Positions 1 to 8,903 of a stretch of DNA of 8,903 bases are shown piece after piece. The notes under the pieces are model-generated. The model was not told the origin of the DNA. It made no database searches and saw nothing but the letters and a program-made list of their open reading frames with translations. The DNA is taken from the NCBI GenBank assembly GCA_018400545.1, contig JAGYLT010000082.1, positions 1-8,903 on the forward strand, written 5' to 3'. The position numbers were made by a program, and so were the translations under genes. This stretch comes from Bacteroidales bacterium (GTDB lineage Bacteria > Bacteroidota > Bacteroidia > Bacteroidales > 4484-276). How positions within the stretch are numbered: position 1 is the stretch's first letter; the number at the start of each line of letters is the position of its first letter.

Positions 1-2198
1 GTAAGCATTAGCGAAACCCCGCTGGCCGTAGCCCCGAAGGTTTTTCTTACGCCAATTTCCTTGGTGCGCTGCTCAGCAAGATATGACGACAAGCCGAATA
101 AGCCCAGGCAGGCAATAAAAATGGCCACGATGGAAAAGTAGATATACATTTTTGATAGCCTGACTTCGGCATGATAAAGTTCTTCGAAAGACTGATCGAG
201 GAAATGGTATTCAAACGGAAATTCCGGTTCAAGGCGGTTCCAGGCATTTTCGATTTCGGCCAGATGATTGGCTACATCTCCCGGTTGTATCCTGATGCAA
301 AGGTTTCGCATGCCCCGCTCCCGCAGATGAAACATGAAGGGTTCTACCTGTTCGTGCAGCGATGCAAAATGAAAATCATCAACAACTCCGATCACTTCAA
401 AATTTCGGCTGTTCATCGGGTCATTGGGTTTTATTTTTTTTCCAATTGCATCATCACCCCAGCCCAGTTTTTCCCAGAGCGTACGGTTGATAATTACCGC
501 AGACGTATCCGTACTGTAATCCTTAGAAAAACTCCTTCCCATGATCAGGTTCATGCCCATGGTTTCGAGGTAATGATAATCCACACCTGCATGAAATATC
601 AGCCACGGATCGTTTGCGCTTTCGCCCTCCGGAAAATATGCACTGCCATCGCTGCCGTTTCCGGGATTCATTGTTGCAGCGCTCACAGATTCAGTTGCAG
701 GAATACGCTTCATTTCGTTGATGATCTCTTTCACATTTTCGCGCAATTTTTCATTGCGTAATTCTACAACCATCACACGTTCTTTGTCAAAACCAAGCCT
801 CCTGTTTTGCATATAGTCGATTTGCCTGCTGATGATTCCTGTGCCGATGATCAGAAAAATGGAGATGGCAAACTGAAATACCACCAGCACATTCCGTAAG
901 CCTGCACTTCGGCGGTTACCGGTAATGCGGTCGTTCTTCAGCACTTTAACAGGCTGAAATGATGACAGATAAAAAGCGGGATAACTTCCGGCAACGAACC
1001 CCACAGCAAGAGACAGAAACACGTATCGCAATATCATAACCGGATCGGTGAGGATACTTCTGCTGAGCCCCCTCCCCACAATATCGCCGAAATGAGGCAG
1101 AAAAAGTTCCACCATCAGCAATGCAATAATCAGGCTGGTAAGGCTGAGCATAACGCTTTCGGTGATGAACTGATTTATCAGTTGCCTGCGAAAGGCCCCG
1201 TGCACTTTTCTAACGCCCACTTCCTTTGCACGCCCCGCCGAACGGGCAGTGGTCAGGTTCATAAAATTGATGCAGGCAATGAGCAGGATAAACAGGGCAA
1301 TTGCCGAAAAGGTGTAAACATACGACATATCGCTGTTTGGGGACATCTCTGCCATCAGGTTCGAATGGAGATGTATATCGTTAACAGGCTGCAAAAAAGC
1401 ATTGAATTCCATCTGGAAATTTTCAAATACTTTCGGAGGCTCACCTGATTCGATGATGATCCTGTTCATGATAATCTTTTTGATTTTTTCTTCAAAGGCT
1501 CTTACATCAGCCTGTTCAGCAAGTTTGATGTAAGTGTAATAAGCCAGAGACCCCCAGTTTCCCCGCGTATAATCTTGTTCCAGGGTATGAATCGAATTCC
1601 AGGAAATGAGCGCCGGAAAATCAAAATGGGTATTGTTGGGCAGATCGCGAATAACAGCGGTCACCTTCAGGGTAAATTCATTATTAAATCTCAATACACT
1701 ACCTACAGGGTTTTCACTACCAAAAAGTTTGTTGGCCAACGATTCGGTGAGCACAATGGTCAGGGGTTCGTAAAGCGCAGTGGAGAGGTCACCGTAAACG
1801 GATTCAAAAGAAAAGATATCAAAGAATGCCGAATCGGCCATCATGAGGTCCTGTTCATAGATGCGGGTATCTCCTTTCGAAAGTAAGGCTTCCTGGCTGA
1901 TATTCCGGAGCCTCACCGAATTTTCTACCTCCGGATAAGTTTGCCTTAACGCAGGCGCCAATGGTGCAGGTGCTACCGCCGCCTTGAAAAAATCACCAGA
2001 CATTCTTCCATCCACAGCCACACGGTAAATGTTTTGATAATCCCGGTGAAAACGGTCATAATTCAGCTCATGACGAACGTAAATAAGTATGAGGATACTT
2101 GCAGACAGACCAATGGCAAGTCCTAAAACATTGATGAGTGTGTAAGTCTGATTTCTCAGCAAATTCCTGAAGGAAATCTTAAAATAATTTTTTATCAT
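1..2198 (-). CDS. FtsX/MacB-like ABC transporter permease, C-terminus cut by the window edge
   Basis: Translating the minus strand from the ATG at 2198 gives 732 uninterrupted codons that run off the left edge, so only the start is present. An in-frame TAA lies directly before this ATG, so no longer start exists. The protein begins MIKNYFKISFRNLLRN, typical of Bacteroidota FtsX-family permeases. I see a first membrane segment at about residues 21-42, a large extracytoplasmic MacB-type core (about 45-290), and membrane segments at about 292-313, 347-366, 389-410 and 436-456. A second periplasmic core follows (about 457-680), then a membrane segment at 685-706. The paired FtsX signatures KEVGVRKVHGA (about 325-335) and KEIGVRKTFGA (about 713-723) mark the two halves. 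The family usually has about 800 residues, so the last two membrane segments are probably outside the window. Such permeases work with a separate ATPase in efflux, lipoprotein handling or mechanotransmission; no ATPase gene is visible here, and the substrate is unknown. A terminator upstream suggests its own promoter. Confidence 0.93.
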   Translation of the reverse strand, partial: MIKNYFKISFRNLLRNQTYTLINVLGLAIGLSASILILIYVRHELNYDRFHRDYQNIYRVAVDGRMSGDFFKAAVAPAPLAPALRQTYPEVENSVRLRNISQEALLSKGDTRIYEQDLMMADSAFFDIFSFESVYGDLSTALYEPLTIVLTESLANKLFGSENPVGSVLRFNNEFTLKVTAVIRDLPNNTHFDFPALISWNSIHTLEQDYTRGNWGSLAYYTYIKLAEQADVRAFEEKIKKIIMNRIIIESGEPPKVFENFQMEFNAFLQPVNDIHLHSNLMAEMSPNSDMSYVYTFSAIALFILLIACINFMNLTTARSAGRAKEVGVRKVHGAFRRQLINQFITESVMLSLTSLIIALLMVELFLPHFGDIVGRGLSRSILTDPVMILRYVFLSLAVGFVAGSYPAFYLSSFQPVKVLKNDRITGNRRSAGLRNVLVVFQFAISIFLIIGTGIISRQIDYMQNRRLGFDKERVMVVELRNEKLRENVKEIINEMKRIPATESVSAATMNPGNGSDGSAYFPEGESANDPWLIFHAGVDYHYLETMGMNLIMGRSFSKDYSTDTSAVIINRTLWEKLGWGDDAIGKKIKPNDPMNSRNFEVIGVVDDFHFASLHEQVEPFMFHLRERGMRNLCIRIQPGDVANHLAEIENAWNRLEPEFPFEYHFLDQSFEELYHAEVRLSKMYIYFSIVAIFIACLGLFGLSSYLAEQRTKEIGVRKTFGATASGVSLML

Positions 2199-2335
2199 TT
2201 ACCAAACCCTTTTCAGGAGGGTTATCATTTTTTATGCCACTTAAGGCAAACCACTGATATCTTGACCTTTAAAAAATTATCAGGAAAATTAAAAGTCCCA
2301 ATTACCTTTATTCATTAAAAAGACTGTGCGGAATC

Positions 2336-2363
2336 GTTCAACCGCAATTTTGATTGGTTCAAC
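2336..2363. promoter_or_regulatory. Candidate regulator-binding site upstream of the permease gene
   Basis: The heptamer GTTCAAC occurs at 2336-2342 and again at 2357-2363, exactly 21 bp apart (about two helical turns). Between and overlapping them is an imperfect palindrome, AACC-g-CAAT / TTTG / ATTGGTT (2340-2359). The site lies between the terminator of the upstream unit and the permease start, about 140 nt before the ATG, where an operator for the permease would be expected. No matching regulator is recognised, and so short a repeat in AT-rich DNA could be chance. No clear TAnnTTTG promoter element was found in the 245-nt gap; TAATTTTC/TAATTTTT-like stretches on the minus strand are only weak candidates. 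Confidence 0.3.
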
Positions 2364-2381
2364 TTTTTGGATTTAAAAACG

Positions 2382-2409
2382 AAAAGCCCCGCCGAAGGGC
2401 GGGGCTTTT
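2382..2409 (-). terminator. Rho-independent terminator of the three-gene unit
   Basis: A perfect 12-bp stem, AAAAGCCCCGCC paired with GGCGGGGCTTTT, encloses a 4-nt loop. It starts 34 nt past the stop codon of the large secreted protein. Read on the minus strand the stem ends in TTTT followed by CGTTTTT, a good U-tract. The A-run on the other side means it could also work on the plus strand, but no plus-strand gene ends here. It separates the toroid operon from the permease gene. Confidence 0.9.
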
Positions 2410-2443
2410 CATAGAGTCAGGTTTTGTAATGAAAACTATCAGC

Positions 2444-5400
2444 CTATTCGATGATGAGCTTTTCGATGATCAAACCGGCTTCGTTGGATGCTTTCATGAA
2501 GTAAACACCCTTTTCGAGGTTGGTCAGATCGATTGCAGCATCACCCTCGGTTGCTGTTTCAAATACAACCTGTCCGGCAGCATTAATAATTTGAATATCA
2601 TAATTGCTACTGGCAATAATGTTGAGCTGTCCGGTTGTCGGATTCGGATATGCACTGAAGAATGCATTTTCTGTACCCGGAATACCAAGTGCTCCCAGCT
2701 TCAGATCGGTAACCTTCGAAACTGCTCCTGCTTCATAAATACCCTGATAGAACTTGCTGTCGAAGGTAGTTTCCAGATGGTAAATCTGATCTTCGGCAGC
2801 TTTGTAAACCATCAGGTTCATGATTTCGCCCTGCGCCAGGCCATCAACAGCTTCGGTCGTGAAATCATCCCCATTGGCAATCAGTTGCAGATTTTCAGTT
2901 CCGCCTTTGTATTCCGTGATACCGGCAATATTTCCGGAGGCACCAAATAGTCCGATGTAATCACCGGACTCCAGCATTTTCAGCGCTGCATTTTCGATGG
3001 CGATGATGTGCGGATTACCGGTGTTAATCACATCCTGCCAGGGAGAATTATTTACAAACGGAACCGATGGCTGGCTGGTTGCACCTGCTTTGGCGCTAAA
3101 GTCAACCGTTACAGGATTCAACAAATTAATCAGATAACCAACGCCCGGTTCTATCGTGCCAATGGTATTAAGTCCGCCTTCGGGCCAGAAGACTGTTTGT
3201 TCCTGCAAATTGAATGCATAAACCAGGTCATCACCCATTTCTGCGAAAATATCCGTGGTCATTTCTACAGGTGAGAGCACAGGCATAAAGCTGAATCCGG
3301 CGGGCAAATCAACTGTTGTTTCGGCCGGGAAGCCGTAGAATTCGAGTAAAGTAGGATTAACAATCTTGATCTTGTAGCCTTCGTAGCTGTTCCAGTCGCC
3401 AATGAGGTTGATATTCTGGAATGGCCAGTAAATTCCTGAATTGGAAACGAGGATAACCATGTCTTCCTCGATCTCGCTGAGCACCACCTCCAGTGCAGGG
3501 TCTTCCGGTATGATGTATGATGAAATACCGAGCCATCCGGCCATCAACTCAAGTTGCTGGTCAACTTCACTGGCGAATGTGATCATGACAGATACATCCA
3601 TCGATGGAATTTCGTTCATATCCAAAAAGTTACCGGTGTACATGTAGCTCCCCAAGGGATAATCTCCCGGTACGGTGAGATACATTTCACCATTACCAAC
3701 AAGGAACTGCAGTCCATCCACCAATGAAAATTCCTGATCAACTTCACCCTCAACTTTAATGTAGAATGTGGGCTGATTACCATTGATGATTTCCCACATA
3801 GTGCCCTGCCATCCGGCGGCGCCTTCAACAACACCACGTCCGGCCCAGTAGTCGTAAAAACCTTCAGGTACAGAGCCCGGATCGAGGAAGAATGGGTACA
3901 TATCTTCCATAAATGGCACATTGCTGCTGGTATTATCGCCCAGGTTCAGGTAATAGTGTTCAATCATTTCATCCAATCTTACCAGGTAACCACCTTCGAG
4001 ATCGCCAAGTGCGGTTTCCCAAACATTCTGATCTTCCGAAACAATCAGTTCAGCTTCCAGGAGTTCGGGTCTGTAGAAACTAATCATCACATCAATCTCA
4101 TTGGAAAGCAAACCGGTTTCACTTTCAATGATTCCGGAATACACATAATCACCGGTTGGATAATCGCCCGGGGTTTGCTGATATTCTTCTAATCCATTTG
4201 CCAGATATTGTAGGCCGTCAATAAGGCTAAACATCTGATCTTTGGTTTGGTCGTCAACTTTTACATAAAATGTTGGTTCATTTCCAGTAATGATCTCATA
4301 CATGATGGCCTGCCATCCGGTTGCATTTTCATCAACACCTTTGGCAGCCCACCAGGCATAAAAGTCGTCAGGCACGGAATTCACATCCAGGTAAAATGGA
4401 TACATACCCAAAGCCAACGGCATATTGGTAGCAGTTTCATCACCCAGGTTGAAATAGTACGTATCTACGTTGAAGTCAAGTCCATGGAGAAATCCGTTTT
4501 CGACCGATCCCGGCACATCACTCCAATCCAGTTCATTTTCTGAAACTTCAAGATCAACAGTGGTAAAAAACACAAATGGTGAACCATCCTGTGTGATGGT
4601 GAATGTTTCTTCGCCATTGGCTGACCCTTCGGCAATTATGGTTATTACAGCCATTCTTTCCACATCGGTTGGATTGGCCTCATAATTAATGGTCACTGTT
4701 GCGTTGCCGTTTCCCATCATGGGGTCGGCAGTAAACCAGTCTGCATCAAAATCGAGTTCCCAATCTGCTCCAACCAGGCCAGTAAAGTCGATGTCGAAGG
4801 TTGTGGAACCGTTTGTGAAGGGCACATCAGCTTCCATGGGATCAATGGTCATTTCAGGGCTACCGAGTTCTAAATTCACACCCTTTGACTGTTGTGAGGT
4901 TTGAGCTGTAATATTACCCTGGAACAGGCCCGGATCGAAGTTTAAAGAACCGGGTGTTGTAAATGAAACCGTAACCGTTTCGGTGGCTCCAGGTTGAATA
5001 ACCTCGAAAAAGTTGGGTGAAATGGTAATGTCTTCTGAAAGAATTACATTCCCGTTTTGATCCACAAGATCAGATGCGAAAACATCTACATCCAGTAAGG
5101 ATGTTTCTTCTCCTGTTTCAGAAATATCAAATGTAAATTCATAAAACTGGCTATACTCAAACGGGTTGAATGCCACAACGTTTGGATTGATTACCATTTG
5201 TGGAATGGGTGTGGGGGGCAGAACAATAATCACATTCAACCCACCAATTGCATTTACAAATCCGGCAGCTCCGATTGGCGTAAATGGAATCACATCTTCC
5301 AGCAAGAAACACTCTTCATCGGTCAACTCACCTTCAAGAAAAGTTTTGTAGCACAATTCGGCTGTTTGCGGATCATTACAGGTGTTATTTACTTCAACAC

Positions 5401-6751
5401 CGTAGTTGGTTGATTCCTGTACCTCAATTGTCAGTTCATAAAAATTATCGGAAGTAGATGTCCATTCTGATAAAGGAATGTTGGTAAACCAAGCTGTTCC
5501 GTTCCATCCAGCCTGATTACCCAATTCATCAGACACTGAAAATTCAAAGCAATCATCAGCTTTTGCCGCGCCCGGATTTGTATCCAGTGAAATCTTGAGG
5601 GTACTTCCAACCGGTACTGACTGGGTTTGCAGGCAAAGCAATGCCAGTGCTGTTTCCATGTTGTTGCCCTGTCCGCCGTAAGCTGCATTCCAAAAGTAGT
5701 TTCCGTTACCATCTGTTTGATACTGGCTTTCGATAGCATTGTAGAGGTATGCATACCAGTCACCGCCAGCAAAAATGGTTTTATTTCCGAGGGCCATGGC
5801 TTTCGAAAATTCGTAGAGGTAGTAATAGTAGCCACCACCTGAGTAAACATCATTATTGTTAATCTGATTTTCATCAATCAACTGAGCTAATGAGAAATTA
5901 TCCAGATAGTTGAAAAACTCATCTTTTAATGCACTTCCTCCGGCAATACCATGATCTGCCGCAAGCACAGCACCCCAAACACCTGCGCAGGTATTACCCT
6001 GTGTCCAGGTGCCACAACTTTGATATCCAATATAGGAATAGTCTCCTGATGAGCATTTTCTGGTTTGCATGTATCCGTAAATCTTATTCCAGATATCATT
6101 TTCCTCGTAATCCATGGCATCCAGGGCCAGGAAAACCCACTGGTTTACTGACATATCGCCTCCGGTTTGTGAAGTATTATTTCGATTATACCTCCAACTT
6201 ACAGAAGTCCAGGTTTCGACAACATCCTGGGTGTAATAATTCAATCCATCAGCAACGGCTGTTTCAATATCCGTTTTTAGCTGTCCGGAAATATAGCCAC
6301 CACCATTCAGGGGTGTTTCGAGGGCAAGTTTTAGGGCAACAATACAAATACCTGTCTCGTAACCATAATGGCTGCTGCTGCCAAAGGCTCCATAATGGTA
6401 AGCTCCGGCAGTAGTTACCTGCCTCCCAAGAATGTAGTCGATGGCATTCTGAACCACGGTCCCATATACAGGATCGTCTATATTGTGTCCGTTTTGTAGA
6501 AAGGCCTGCAAACAAAAACCGGAAATACCGGCACCGCCCCAGTCGCCCGGGGTTTTGGTCATTTGATAAAGGTTGTCAGGATCGATACTGGCACCTTCAC
6601 CGGGGGTGTAACCCTTGGTAGTGTTCTGGGTTGAAGCCAAAAAGGCCAAACCCTTTTCAATCAGAATGTTCGACTTTTGTGCTTCAGTCTGAAGGCTGAA
6701 AAGCATAAAACATCCTGTTAAAAAAACCAACAGTAAAGTTTTGATTTTCAT
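2444..6751 (-). CDS. Large T9SS-secreted multidomain protein with N-terminal prenyltransferase/squalene-cyclase-like toroid
   Basis: This is a 1435-residue exported protein. Residues 1-24 form a signal peptide, with likely cleavage at TEA|Q. Residues about 27-376 are an alpha/alpha-toroid of prenyltransferase/squalene-oxidase type, with helical repeats such as GLAFLASTQN (34), AIDYILGRQ (103) and GYETGICIVALKLAL (130-144). Triterpene-cyclase DXDD or DCTAE motifs are absent, so enzymatic activity is doubtful. About 380-625 is beta-rich and Ig-like. About 630-722 resembles a BACON domain and ends in FTITQDG. Residues about 731-1060 hold a duplicated ~168-residue domain that I do not recognise. 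About 1071-1222 has two GW..ISSYI / GDW..GYxI-type modules common in Bacteroidota secreted proteins, followed by a GDYIGLF module (about 1263). Residues about 1365-1435 are a T9SS type A sorting domain (YPNPTTGQLNI ... GVYFMKA ... EKLIIE). The product should cross the outer membrane and be released or surface-anchored. It is last in a three-gene unit, 39 nt after the second toroid gene, with a strong ribosome binding site. All cysteines fall within residues 1-481. Substrate unknown. Confidence 0.93.
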   Translation of the reverse strand: MKIKTLLLVFLTGCFMLFSLQTEAQKSNILIEKGLAFLASTQNTTKGYTPGEGASIDPDNLYQMTKTPGDWGGAGISGFCLQAFLQNGHNIDDPVYGTVVQNAIDYILGRQVTTAGAYHYGAFGSSSHYGYETGICIVALKLALETPLNGGGYISGQLKTDIETAVADGLNYYTQDVVETWTSVSWRYNRNNTSQTGGDMSVNQWVFLALDAMDYEENDIWNKIYGYMQTRKCSSGDYSYIGYQSCGTWTQGNTCAGVWGAVLAADHGIAGGSALKDEFFNYLDNFSLAQLIDENQINNNDVYSGGGYYYYLYEFSKAMALGNKTIFAGGDWYAYLYNAIESQYQTDGNGNYFWNAAYGGQGNNMETALALLCLQTQSVPVGSTLKISLDTNPGAAKADDCFEFSVSDELGNQAGWNGTAWFTNIPLSEWTSTSDNFYELTIEVQESTNYGVEVNNTCNDPQTAELCYKTFLEGELTDEECFLLEDVIPFTPIGAAGFVNAIGGLNVIIVLPPTPIPQMVINPNVVAFNPFEYSQFYEFTFDISETGEETSLLDVDVFASDLVDQNGNVILSEDITISPNFFEVIQPGATETVTVSFTTPGSLNFDPGLFQGNITAQTSQQSKGVNLELGSPEMTIDPMEADVPFTNGSTTFDIDFTGLVGADWELDFDADWFTADPMMGNGNATVTINYEANPTDVERMAVITIIAEGSANGEETFTITQDGSPFVFFTTVDLEVSENELDWSDVPGSVENGFLHGLDFNVDTYYFNLGDETATNMPLALGMYPFYLDVNSVPDDFYAWWAAKGVDENATGWQAIMYEIITGNEPTFYVKVDDQTKDQMFSLIDGLQYLANGLEEYQQTPGDYPTGDYVYSGIIESETGLLSNEIDVMISFYRPELLEAELIVSEDQNVWETALGDLEGGYLVRLDEMIEHYYLNLGDNTSSNVPFMEDMYPFFLDPGSVPEGFYDYWAGRGVVEGAAGWQGTMWEIINGNQPTFYIKVEGEVDQEFSLVDGLQFLVGNGEMYLTVPGDYPLGSYMYTGNFLDMNEIPSMDVSVMITFASEVDQQLELMAGWLGISSYIIPEDPALEVVLSEIEEDMVILVSNSGIYWPFQNINLIGDWNSYEGYKIKIVNPTLLEFYGFPAETTVDLPAGFSFMPVLSPVEMTTDIFAEMGDDLVYAFNLQEQTVFWPEGGLNTIGTIEPGVGYLINLLNPVTVDFSAKAGATSQPSVPFVNNSPWQDVINTGNPHIIAIENAALKMLESGDYIGLFGASGNIAGITEYKGGTENLQLIANGDDFTTEAVDGLAQGEIMNLMVYKAAEDQIYHLETTFDSKFYQGIYEAGAVSKVTDLKLGALGIPGTENAFFSAYPNPTTGQLNIIASSNYDIQIINAAGQVVFETATEGDAAIDLTNLEKGVYFMKASNEAGLIIEKLIIE
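3572..4561 (-). repeat. Tandem duplication of a ~168-residue domain inside the large secreted protein
   Basis: Copy 1 spans about residues 731-893 (4073-4561) and copy 2 about 898-1060 (3572-4060). Landmarks repeat with a constant offset of 167-168 residues: YYFNLGD/YYLNLGD (765/933), MYPF (783/951), GWQ (812/980), PTFY (826/994), DGLQ (845/1012) and PGDYP (861/1028). By hand alignment, about half of the roughly 110 core positions are identical. The domain is rich in aromatic and acidic residues, has no cysteine, and matches no family I can name. Its aromatic richness would suit ligand or glycan binding, but that is inference. Confidence 0.88.
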
Positions 6752-6760
6752 TGGTGTAAT

Positions 6761-6766
6761 CCTCCT
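6761..6766 (-). promoter_or_regulatory. Strong Shine-Dalgarno site of the large secreted protein
   Basis: On the minus strand AGGAGG stands 9 nt before the ATG at 6751. Bacteroidota genes usually have weak or no Shine-Dalgarno sequences, and the other starts in this window show none as good. The site confirms the start and suggests that the last gene is translated well despite its distal position. Confidence 0.8.
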
Positions 6767-6790
6767 AATTTAATTAAAAACAGATGTCTT

Positions 6791-7969
6791 CTATTTAGAC
6801 TTATAAATCATTTGCCTTTTTTTAACCGTAGTGCTTTCGGGTAAACCGGCAATTTGCTCCAGTGCCAGGATTGCATAAGCGGTAACCAATACAGGGTTGT
6901 TTTCCCACCAACGGCCATTTTCATTAATCCAGAAACCTTCCGGCTTTTGAACTTTAATGATTTGATTGGCAAGATCATAACGCCAGTCGTGGCTGTTACC
7001 TTCCTGATCGGTTATATCTTCTGCACCAAAAGCATCCAGCGACTTGGCCATGGTCTGATAATAATAATATAAACCCTGAATACCCATACGTGGTGTAGCC
7101 TCCACTGAATAGTTAGATTGAATCCAGTTGAATGCTGACTGAACCCGTTCATCATCCTTATCCACGTCGGCATAGATCAGGCTTTTGAGACCGGCGTAGG
7201 TCATGCTGCCGTATGAATTGGTTTCTCCGGCCTTGCTGGCACCCGGCTCATACATGAAGCCACCGTCATTTGCCGCATAATCTTCCGGATTGACGCTTTG
7301 CAGGTTTTGGCATTTGGCGAGAAATACAAGCGCTTTGTCGTAAAACAGCTTTTTGTTTTGCATCCGCTGAACTTCTTCATCGGTTAACCTGCGCTCAGGA
7401 TCAACGGCTTTCATATCATCCATCGACATGGCCTCAATGGCCCACTGCAGATTAGAGAGGTCGGGCCTTTCGTCACCGCCGTAGCCTACCCCACCATAGA
7501 ACGTACTATCCGTTGTAAAATCATCACTTTCGTCAATTTGCAAACCCATTAAATATTCTTCAGCCCGAATAATGATGGTTTCATACTCAGGGAAATTGGC
7601 ATCTTTAAAAGCCACCAGGCAAATGGAAGTATTGTAATTGGGCATGTCGTCCAGGTAAATTCCGCCATCCGGCTTAACACAACTTTTCAAAAATGCAAAG
7701 CCGTTTTTGATCATGGGTTCGTTGATGGTAATGCTTGGATGCGCCCTGAGATAGGCCGACAAAACCAGCGCCGTCATGGCCGGATAGTGTTGCCAGGAGC
7801 CGTCATCTTCCTGTTGTTCGTAAAGCCATTTGAGCCCTTCCTTTATCGAATGATCAATCTCTTTTGCCAGTGATAGATCGACCTTTGGTTCAGCTTTCTG
7901 TGCTATGCCCTGCTGAACGGGGAGTAAAACTGAGATGAGAATAAAAAATCGTGTAAACAGTCTGATCAT
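6791..7969 (-). CDS. Exported prenyltransferase/squalene-oxidase repeat protein (alpha/alpha toroid)
   Basis: This 392-residue protein has a signal peptide (MIRLFTRFFILISVLLPVQQ, likely cleavage GIA|Q at 23) and then almost only toroid repeats. Examples are GLKWLYEQQEDDGSW (45-59), GFAFLKSCVKPDGGIY (90-105), ALVFLAKCQN with DGGFMY (213-240), FNWIQSNYSVE (280-290) and IIKVQKPEGFWINE (337-350). The QxxDGSW-like units are the hallmark of the squalene-hopene cyclase/prenyltransferase superfamily. The stretches YGSMTYAGLKSLIYA (253-267) and GLYYYYQTMAKSLDA (299-313) resemble, from memory, a secreted subfamily of unknown function common in Planctomycetes. It is shorter than true squalene-hopene cyclases (over 600 residues) and is exported, so hopanoid synthesis is unlikely. 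There is no T9SS tail, so it should stay in the periplasm or attach to the envelope. It starts 12 nt after the YdjY gene and is followed by a much larger protein with a related toroid, suggesting shared substrate or partnership. Function unknown. Confidence 0.93.
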   Translation of the reverse strand: MIRLFTRFFILISVLLPVQQGIAQKAEPKVDLSLAKEIDHSIKEGLKWLYEQQEDDGSWQHYPAMTALVLSAYLRAHPSITINEPMIKNGFAFLKSCVKPDGGIYLDDMPNYNTSICLVAFKDANFPEYETIIIRAEEYLMGLQIDESDDFTTDSTFYGGVGYGGDERPDLSNLQWAIEAMSMDDMKAVDPERRLTDEEVQRMQNKKLFYDKALVFLAKCQNLQSVNPEDYAANDGGFMYEPGASKAGETNSYGSMTYAGLKSLIYADVDKDDERVQSAFNWIQSNYSVEATPRMGIQGLYYYYQTMAKSLDAFGAEDITDQEGNSHDWRYDLANQIIKVQKPEGFWINENGRWWENNPVLVTAYAILALEQIAGLPESTTVKKRQMIYKSK

Positions 7970-7981
7970 AAATTATTGGGT

Positions 7982-8713
7982 TTAAATCTTTTCAACAATT
8001 AAAGTTACCTTTTTGCCAATAGTTAGTTTGGCATTTTCATCCACATAAAACAGTTCATCGTTAAATTTAGATTGGGCATTGAGCTCCATCATGGCAACCG
8101 GATCGTGATAGGTTGCAATCATGGTAACATCCGGATCCACCATCACGTGGCCGCTCATATGCGTTGCAGCCCCGCGAAAAAGCCAGGTGGAGGGTTTGAG
8201 TTTTTTTTGAACAGATTCATCATAAACAAAATGCTCAATCGGTTTCTTTACCATTTCGCCATTCAACTCGTAAGCCAGATATAATTTTACGGCATCACCC
8301 TCGGTTTCGATGCTGCTGAACTGGTCGGATTGGTCAATTTTGGAAGGATCATCAGGAACTTCATTCACCGGGTCGAGCCCAAGCAAAAGCAGTGCAGTTT
8401 GAAATTCAAGTGGTGATATGTTTGTAACGAGTAAACTTTCGTGTACCTTTCCTTCTTTTCTGCAAAGCACCACCTCAATCAGTCCTTTGTTCATATTAAT
8501 TTTGCAGGGTATTTCAATGGTTCCGTTTGCCGTATTGATCGACATTTCGTTTAGCATATATACATCTTCGCTGACTTTTTTTAGCATATCCTCCGGTTTT
8601 GCCTGTTGCCCATTTAAGAACTGAGGCGTAAGGGCAATCCAAAAAATCAGAAATAACAGACCTGCCAAAGGTTTTGACAGTGTCAAAAATCGGAACTGTT
8701 GAATTTTAAGCAT
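7982..8713 (-). CDS. Exported YdjY-domain protein
   Basis: This is a 243-residue protein if started at the ATG at 8713. A TTG 18 codons upstream (8767) is also in frame, but the extra residues would be encoded across an inverted repeat and would put a polar tail before the signal sequence, so I prefer the ATG. Residues 1-36 form a signal peptide with core PLAGLLFLIFWIALTP and probable cleavage near LNG|Q. The rest fits the YdjY family: GLIEVVLCRKEGKVHESLLVT (77-97, with the GKxHES motif), the helix FQTALLLLGLDP (104-115), STWLFRG (175-181), ATYHDPVAMMEL (200-211) and a closing GKKVTLIVEKI. The biochemical role of YdjY domains is not established; E. coli YdjY sits in a cluster with membrane and oxidoreductase genes. 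Here it is the first gene of the unit and only 12 nt separate it from the toroid gene, so the two are probably co-transcribed. Family assignment rests on motif recall, not a search. Confidence 0.85.
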   Translation of the reverse strand: MLKIQQFRFLTLSKPLAGLLFLIFWIALTPQFLNGQQAKPEDMLKKVSEDVYMLNEMSINTANGTIEIPCKINMNKGLIEVVLCRKEGKVHESLLVTNISPLEFQTALLLLGLDPVNEVPDDPSKIDQSDQFSSIETEGDAVKLYLAYELNGEMVKKPIEHFVYDESVQKKLKPSTWLFRGAATHMSGHVMVDPDVTMIATYHDPVAMMELNAQSKFNDELFYVDENAKLTIGKKVTLIVEKI

Positions 8714-8731
8714 GTGAATTTTGTTACCGTT

Positions 8732-8779
8732 TTTGATAAAATCGTACACAATATTAAGAAAAATCAAGATTTTATCAAA
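8732..8779. promoter_or_regulatory. Perfect 12-bp inverted repeat in the leader of the YdjY-toroid operon
   Basis: TTTGATAAAATC (8732-8743) and its exact reverse complement GATTTTATCAAA (8768-8779) flank a 24-nt spacer. The repeat ends 18 nt before the chosen ATG at 8713 and lies downstream of the candidate promoter. It could be an operator with half-sites 36 bp apart centre to centre, or an AU-rich hairpin in the mRNA leader. It is not followed by a U-tract, so it is not a typical terminator. Confidence 0.5.
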
Positions 8780-8833
8780 GCATACCTGAAAAGAATTTAT
8801 AAAATTTAGTGATTTTTATGATAAACTGAGAAA

Positions 8834-8863
8834 CAAAGATAGTTAACAATGCTCAAAATTAAA
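8834..8863 (-). promoter_or_regulatory. Candidate Bacteroidota-type promoter of the three-gene unit
   Basis: On the minus strand TATCTTTG (8841-8834) matches the Bacteroidota -7 consensus TAnnTTTG exactly. Upstream at the expected distance is only TTTA (8863-8860), a 3-of-4 match to the -33 TTTG, with an 18-nt spacer. Transcription would start near 8827 and leave a leader of about 115 nt containing the inverted repeat. The rest of 8714-8903 is AT-rich and shows no gene. Confidence 0.5.
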
Positions 8864-8903
8864 TACTTACATATGAAAAAGGTGTATATATTTTCATTAT
8901 AAA

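Follow-up and report, generated by a model that had tools for sequence, protein, structure and literature searches.

The three-gene locus and its products

We analysed an 8,903 nucleotide (nt) stretch of DNA from a Bacteroidales bacterium (GenBank assembly GCA_018400545.1, contig JAGYLT010000082.1, positions 1 to 8,903), referred to here as the window, whose minus strand carries, in this order, a ydjY-domain gene of 243 amino acids (aa) (7982..8713), a gene for a small toroid protein of 392 aa (6791..7969) and a gene for a giant surface protein of 1435 aa that has a toroid of its own (2444..6751). Together these form a real, conserved and apparently undescribed envelope module. The first-pass annotation of the window described three closely spaced genes, running from one candidate promoter to one strong terminator, and the coordinates, the strand and the intergenic gaps of 12 and 39 nt are all correct. 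Likewise, an intrinsic terminator lies 3' of all three genes and after the last stop of the giant gene (2379..2412, minus strand), with a 15-pair stem (9 G-C pairs), a loop of 4 and a T run. The single promoter was not borne out, as sigma-70-like sites occurred at about the frequency seen in shuffled sequence (22 observed against 18.6 ± 5.2), and the only full match to the Bacteroidota-type promoter pattern falls within the giant gene. Upstream of ydjY, where the contig ends after only 190 nt, there are two -7-like boxes without a -33 box at the expected spacing. Past the terminator lies a MacB/FtsX-type permease gene (3-2198), which runs off the contig.

All three products had been assigned signal peptides and, as judged by hydrophobicity only, each has a basic and hydrophobic signal-like N-terminus, with a candidate cleavage site for signal peptidase I ahead of a Q residue in both toroid proteins and less clearly in YdjY. 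Beyond these N-termini a single hydrophobic segment exceeds the threshold in the three proteins, near residue 492 of the giant. The ydjY product belongs to the NF040466 ydjY_domain family (E=1.4e-26, 93.3 bits against a curated cut-off of 50) and is probably periplasmic. Its AlphaFold2 model (predicted local distance difference test score, pLDDT, 93) is mostly β-structure, and a Foldseek comparison of this model with the PDB gave no match at E≤0.001. The domain is also present in Escherichia coli, and we found no role for it in print.

The 392 aa protein matches PF13243 SQHop_cyclase_C (E=1.4e-8) and has an α/α toroid fold of the squalene-hopene cyclase type. The JGI name is squalene-hopene/tetraprenyl-beta-curcumene cyclase, and among the relatives of the small toroid (5805 at E≤0.001) a number of the 120 listed carry squalene-hopene or terpene cyclase names. 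The protein departs from the class II terpene cyclases, squalene-hopene cyclase among them, in its length (392 against 631 aa), in its signal-like N-terminus and in the DXDD acid motif, with which single-sequence and profile alignments both align D170-L171-S172-N173 (DLSN). Across 84 toroid sequences S172 is invariant, and D170 and N173 are at least 90% conserved. The catalytic acids of the cyclases are therefore lost, and because Ser and Asn occupy their positions the label of cyclase is doubtful. Furthermore, 40 positions are invariant in the same 84 sequences, including an N-x-N-x-RW-x-E stretch, and since these residues are mainly polar, aromatic or glycine the ligand is more likely to be polar or aromatic (resembling a sugar or cyclitol, or a conjugate) than to be squalene. 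No type IX secretion system (T9SS) tail was found in the small toroid protein, which is probably periplasmic.

The toroid domain of the giant (residues 25-400; 5552..6679, minus strand) is invisible to Pfam, where no model matches it; aligned with the 392 aa family using hhalign, it gave a probability of 96 (E=4e-9, 285 columns), against 0.1 and 1.1 in two control comparisons. The two toroids are homologous, and two of the three products thus carry toroids, as the first-pass annotation had stated. The same polypeptide contains a BACON domain (residues 653-721; 4589..4795, minus strand; PF13004 at 667-721, E=2.2e-9, and PF19190 at 653-720, E=4.8e-6), a tandem pair of an unnamed ~160 aa domain (residues 732-892 and 900-1059; 3575..4558, minus strand), the copies of which share 48% identity over 161 positions (blastp of copy against copy, E=2e-52), and a T9SS type A sorting tail (residues 1368-1434; 2450..2650, minus strand; PF18962, E=2e-14, and TIGR04183, E=5.4e-14). 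With both tail models over their cut-offs and its signal-like N-terminus, the giant has the features of T9SS type A cargo, and the proposed pair of one toroid inside and one outside is supported. The giant also has a lipobox-like LTGC, which some of its relatives lack. Just ahead of the start of the giant gene there is an AGGAGG Shine-Dalgarno-like box (6761..6766, minus strand), which recurs in L001-L004, L006 and L007 but not in L008 (seven of eight, the window included), and the ydjY and small toroid genes that were inspected have no such box within 25 nt upstream of their starts. Boxes of this kind are seldom used by Bacteroidota, and strong translation of the surface protein is therefore plausible.

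Conservation of the gene grouping

Scanning contigs of GTDB genomes with the toroid alignment gave 34 toroid loci (numbered with L) from ~8 phyla, with record titles that include Bacteroidota, Cloacimonadota, KSB1, Ignavibacteriae, GN15, Planctomycetota, Verrucomicrobia, Chitinivibrionia and Deltaproteobacteria. Two of them (L032, L034) begin inside the toroid gene, which leaves 32 that are readable upstream, and in 29 of these the gene immediately upstream, with the same orientation, encodes YdjY. In the three exceptions YdjY is upstream but non-adjacent (L027), lies ~5.5 kb away on the other strand (L029), or was not found on a contig that is cut upstream (L023). At 22 of the 34 loci there is, besides the small toroid protein, a larger one that the toroid or giant profile matches (E≤1e-3), which in L021 is encoded upstream. 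The other 12 comprise five that are cut less than 1 kb past the toroid (L005, L010, L013, L016, L024) and seven with no larger profile match (L018, L019, L027-L031), although the downstream proteins of L018 and L019 cluster with the large ones by BLAST. In addition, a hand count showed that in 28 of the 57 closest toroid clusters the longest contig is of exactly the same size as that of a YdjY cluster. Gene order varies among loci while gene content stays, and we regard the grouping as firm. The first-pass annotation had named a failure of the three genes to co-occur in related genomes as grounds for refuting it, and this check came out in its favour.

The large partner proteins that were scanned contain PKD, CARDB, PA14 or astacin domains, and several end in T9SS tails. 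At two distant loci the surface toroid protein carries a fused astacin protease domain (L022, 11118-15191, and P0269, the protein of L008). One relative (P0233), 89% identical to the giant over its first 700 residues, is encoded on a contig of 69,544 bases that is not among the 34 loci. Relatives of ~1090 aa may be without the tandem ~160 aa copies, judged by size only, while in genome G003 (L105/L106, contig C52; joined 3009-24917) a 7302 aa open frame is in the position of the giant. We also examined SprA_N, a T9SS part that we take as a marker of this system, and found it over the cut-off in 18 of 22 module genomes, although weakly (50-65 bits) in five of these. The genomes without it are those of L028-L031, in which no T9SS-tailed toroid partner was found, a pattern consistent with a surface protein confined to genomes that have the T9SS. 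The genomes of L018, L019 and L027 have SprA_N, yet lack a profile-matched larger toroid partner.

Within the Bacteroidota phylum 7 of 296 genomes have YdjY, which is common in Planctomycetota (158 of 199 genomes). In three of the seven Bacteroidota genomes (G001, G136, G267) the toroid is beside YdjY or a few kb off, and the other four (G249, G284, G292, G300) gave no match with the module's own YdjY profile, for two of them even with wider regions included.

TonB-dependent receptors beside the module in relatives

The three genes had been read as an envelope or surface ligand-handling system, and while this is supported it is incomplete, as the most informative partners, TonB-dependent receptors, are found in relatives, outside the window. 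We lean towards reading the three genes as that portion of a TonB-linked outer-membrane system which the window happens to cover. The receptors beside the modules of relatives turn ligand handling of an unspecified kind into a concrete TonB-linked hypothesis. A TonB-dependent receptor is encoded at 12 of the 34 loci, and also between ydjY and toroid in L085 and L086. Among the ten loci titled Bacteroidota, Bacteroidetes or Bacteroidales (L001-L008, L012, L023) it is present in nine, with L002 being cut on both sides. Pfam identified the receptors of L031, L033, L085 and L086, and NCBIfam was applied to 10 receptor frames (7 loci) out of a total of 24; as all NCBIfam matches are below the curated cut-offs, no receptor can be named.

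The receptors form two types, A (~730 aa) and B (~750 aa). In L001 and L003-L007 type A adjoins ydjY and is divergent to it, with type B beyond it where the contig extends (not in L007), whereas in L008 type A precedes type B and ydjY. Elsewhere the order is B, a distant A and ydjY (L022), A-B-toroid (L023), ydjY-toroid-B (L031), B-ydjY-toroid with a distant A and a large protein (L033), ydjY-B-toroid and then a large protein (L085), or ydjY-A-B-toroid-giant (L086). The type B receptor of L005 (3-1527) is broken into two frames, possibly by an assembly frameshift. In relatives the divergent gaps measure 238-563 nt, against only 190 nt upstream of ydjY in the window, where a receptor could therefore not be seen.

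Both types appear specific to the module. Across 14 genomes, scores for the type B receptors of the module range over 745-1030 bits, whereas the next best receptors there stay at ≤232 bits, and type A receptors score 1078-1242 bits in three genomes with the next best at 140. Likewise, G003, which contributed nothing to the type B profile, gave a match of 745 bits at a distance of 24 kb downstream of YdjY; here ydjY, toroid, the 7302 aa protein and the type B receptor are on one strand, with the receptor open frame starting 7 nt past the giant. When whole groups were searched, the toroid was found in 2 of the 295 genomes of one order, which were also the ones with type B above 700 bits, and in 3 of the 197 genomes of one class, with type B in 2 of these 3 and in no other.

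Several observations weigh against a TonB-linked system. The window, ending 190 nt upstream of ydjY, holds no receptor, and none was found at the Cloacimonadota, KSB1 and several other loci, which reach up to ~10 kb each way. In genomes G004-G006, G008, G011 and G012 the best type A or B profile matches are ≤~125 bits, or there are none at E≤1e-30. These receptor-free loci and genomes indicate that the receptors are not obligatory, or that other barrels replace them. Furthermore, 7 of the 9 rows of the type B alignment come from the 14 genomes scored, and those scores are therefore not independent. Both type B-positive genomes of the 197-genome class also gave rows to this alignment, one row stems from a genome in the 295-genome order search, and in all group-wide searches it was the best 3-9 candidates per genome that were scored. 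One member of the 295-genome order (G587) has a weaker type B match of 417 bits without a toroid match. All 34 toroid loci are titled metagenome-assembled genomes. Finally, YdjY is broader than the module and does not go with the toroid everywhere, as in Planctomycetota it is mostly toroid-free, with a toroid nearby in none of 30 loci with 1.5 kb flanks and in 4 of 16 wider regions chosen by hand (L098, L100, L103, L104).

Two other neighbouring genes were observed. A barrel-like gene is near the module in seven receptor-free loci (L009, 14327-15283; L013, L014, L015, L017, L032, L034), and of three such genes scanned, two gave weak matches to FadL, PorV or UPF0164, each of them under the cut-off. 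In Cloacimonadota a gene directly 3' of the toroid encodes iron-sulphur (Fe-S) and reductive-dehalogenase-like domains (L014, 10458-11462, by Pfam), and BLAST clustering placed similar frames in L011 (9398-10405), L016 (11119-11937) and L034 (200-1201).

Proposed working and competing explanations

In its Bacteroidota version a TonB-linked system would comprise up to five genes, for one or two receptors (type A, type B), YdjY, the periplasmic toroid and the large T9SS-exported toroid. The surface toroid would capture the ligand, which the astacin fusion seen at two loci could free from protein, TonB-dependent receptors would carry it across the outer membrane, and the periplasmic toroid would, with YdjY, receive or modify it. 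The ligand is probably a small molecule that is brought inward via TonB-powered outer-membrane channels. For the window's own species this would mean that receptors of this kind are present, that the traffic is import and not export, and that the ligand is handed over from one protein to the next. More tentatively, the paired toroids could themselves be receptors that recognise the same, shared ligand on both sides of the outer membrane, the surface copy exported by the T9SS and the periplasmic copy acting with YdjY, a possibility that we would put below an even chance.

The alternative that survives best, although we consider it unlikely, is that the small toroid works in the periplasm as an enzyme, partnered by YdjY, on a polar substrate resembling a sugar or cyclitol, while the surface toroid pre-processes the same substrate and the receptors merely import it. 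In its favour are the many polar or aromatic residues among the invariant positions, the N-x-N-x-RW-x-E stretch included, and the single-toroid neighbours in the PDB, among them cellobiose 2-epimerases and AprG, whose title there is transaldolase and whose structures contain amino sugars. AprG, from the apramycin pathway, likewise consists of one small toroid, belongs to the fold class of the module's small toroid and was solved with N-acetylglucosamine (GlcNAc) or N-acetylgalactosamine (GalNAc), but Foldseek alignments give only 12-14% identity and we know of no TonB or YdjY partner for it. However, the small toroid gave no recognisable catalytic motif from any named enzyme, and likeness of fold does not prove function. 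Neighbouring genes also bear on this alternative. In L029 (Desulfobacteraceae) the toroid is followed by an ebo-type cluster with EboE at 420 bits, over the cut-off, and in the deltaproteobacterium of L031/L109 (L109 being the wider region) EboD-like and EboE genes are on the contig and strand of the toroid. The ebo genes near toroid or YdjY cover 5121-12554 of L029, with UbiA and a phosphodiesterase, and 48-20000 of L109. EboE is over the cut-off in only 4 of the 22 module genomes, on the contig of the toroid in 2, and EboE (NF035939) is not among the NCBIfam matches of the window's three proteins; cyclitol- or prenyl-linked metabolites as the ligand in some lineages are consequently a hint, no more. 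In Planctomycetota, YdjY and toroid are near a myo-inositol-1-phosphate synthase-like gene in L100 (3464-7981), and YdjY is near such a gene in L102 (4657-7777), as read from the frame start only.

Acquisition of heme or hemoprotein by a protease, a surface binder and a hemin-type receptor is very improbable. TIGR01785, the heme receptor family, is the best or second best match for all five type B receptors compared with NCBIfam (L001, L006, L008, L023, L031), and the astacin domain fused to the surface toroid protein in L022 and P0269 would provide the protease. However, the TIGR01785 scores are 192-287 bits against a cut-off of 316.85, with none of the 10 receptors of relatives over it. Heme receptors as a rule have a histidine between their FRAP and NPNL boxes, and this is absent in all three type B sequences that have both boxes in order.

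Canonical vitamin B12 uptake is, if anything, harder still to credit. Animal transcobalamin and intrinsic factor use an α/α-barrel, a role that the toroids would take here, and TIGR01779, the vitamin B12 receptor, is among the best NCBIfam matches of type A and the best for type A of L006 and L008. However, the scores of 144-152 bits for type A of L001, L003, L006 and L008, and of 88 for L022, are far under the cut-off of 599.7, which none of the 10 receptors of relatives (7 loci) exceeds. The toroid profile matched 36 PDB sequences at E≤10 with no transcobalamin or intrinsic factor chain among them, and few genomes of the searched order have the toroid (2 of 295). Likewise, no riboswitch, cobalamin included, was found at the Rfam gathering score in 18 sources, the window among them, which also counts against B12. 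Least probable of all is that unrelated cargo genes are neighbours by chance without a joint function, as the many Planctomycetota YdjY genes with no toroid nearby could suggest, given that the adjacency is conserved over ~8 phyla while gene order changes.

Among known systems, the BtuB/BtuG and SusC/SusD loci, which are TonB-dependent uptake loci with a surface partner, are close in design. They encode a TonB-dependent receptor together with a surface-exposed partner, as the module does in many relatives, but the partner here is a T9SS-exported toroid protein and theirs is a surface lipoprotein, and the module adds a homologous toroid kept inside, plus YdjY. The neighbours that we scanned, a subset of the total, included no SusD. 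Chitin use by Flavobacterium johnsoniae, in which a T9SS-secreted enzyme operates with TonB import, is alike in the cooperation of a surface T9SS product with TonB import that we propose here, although in a Pfam scan the module toroid matches no glycoside hydrolase family. The ebo cluster is alike in small-molecule traffic across the envelope, and ebo genes are by the toroid in L029 and L109, but it differs in its action, which PMC6282210 places at the inner membrane, and in the small number of module genomes with EboE. The first-pass annotation knew of no described pathway with such a layout, and we likewise found none, nor any description of the module, in the open literature searched.

The conserved TonB-linked setting makes the roles of YdjY and of the small toroid testable, and a database name of cyclase, which suggests terpene synthesis, would be corrected where the catalytic acids are missing. 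If the toroids are indeed paired receptors, recognition of a single ligand at either face of the outer membrane would be an unusual import design, and the YdjY domain would gain a functional context. The module would then represent a new class of TonB-powered solute system, built on catalytically altered toroids of the squalene-cyclase fold and with surface proteins of up to 7302 aa.

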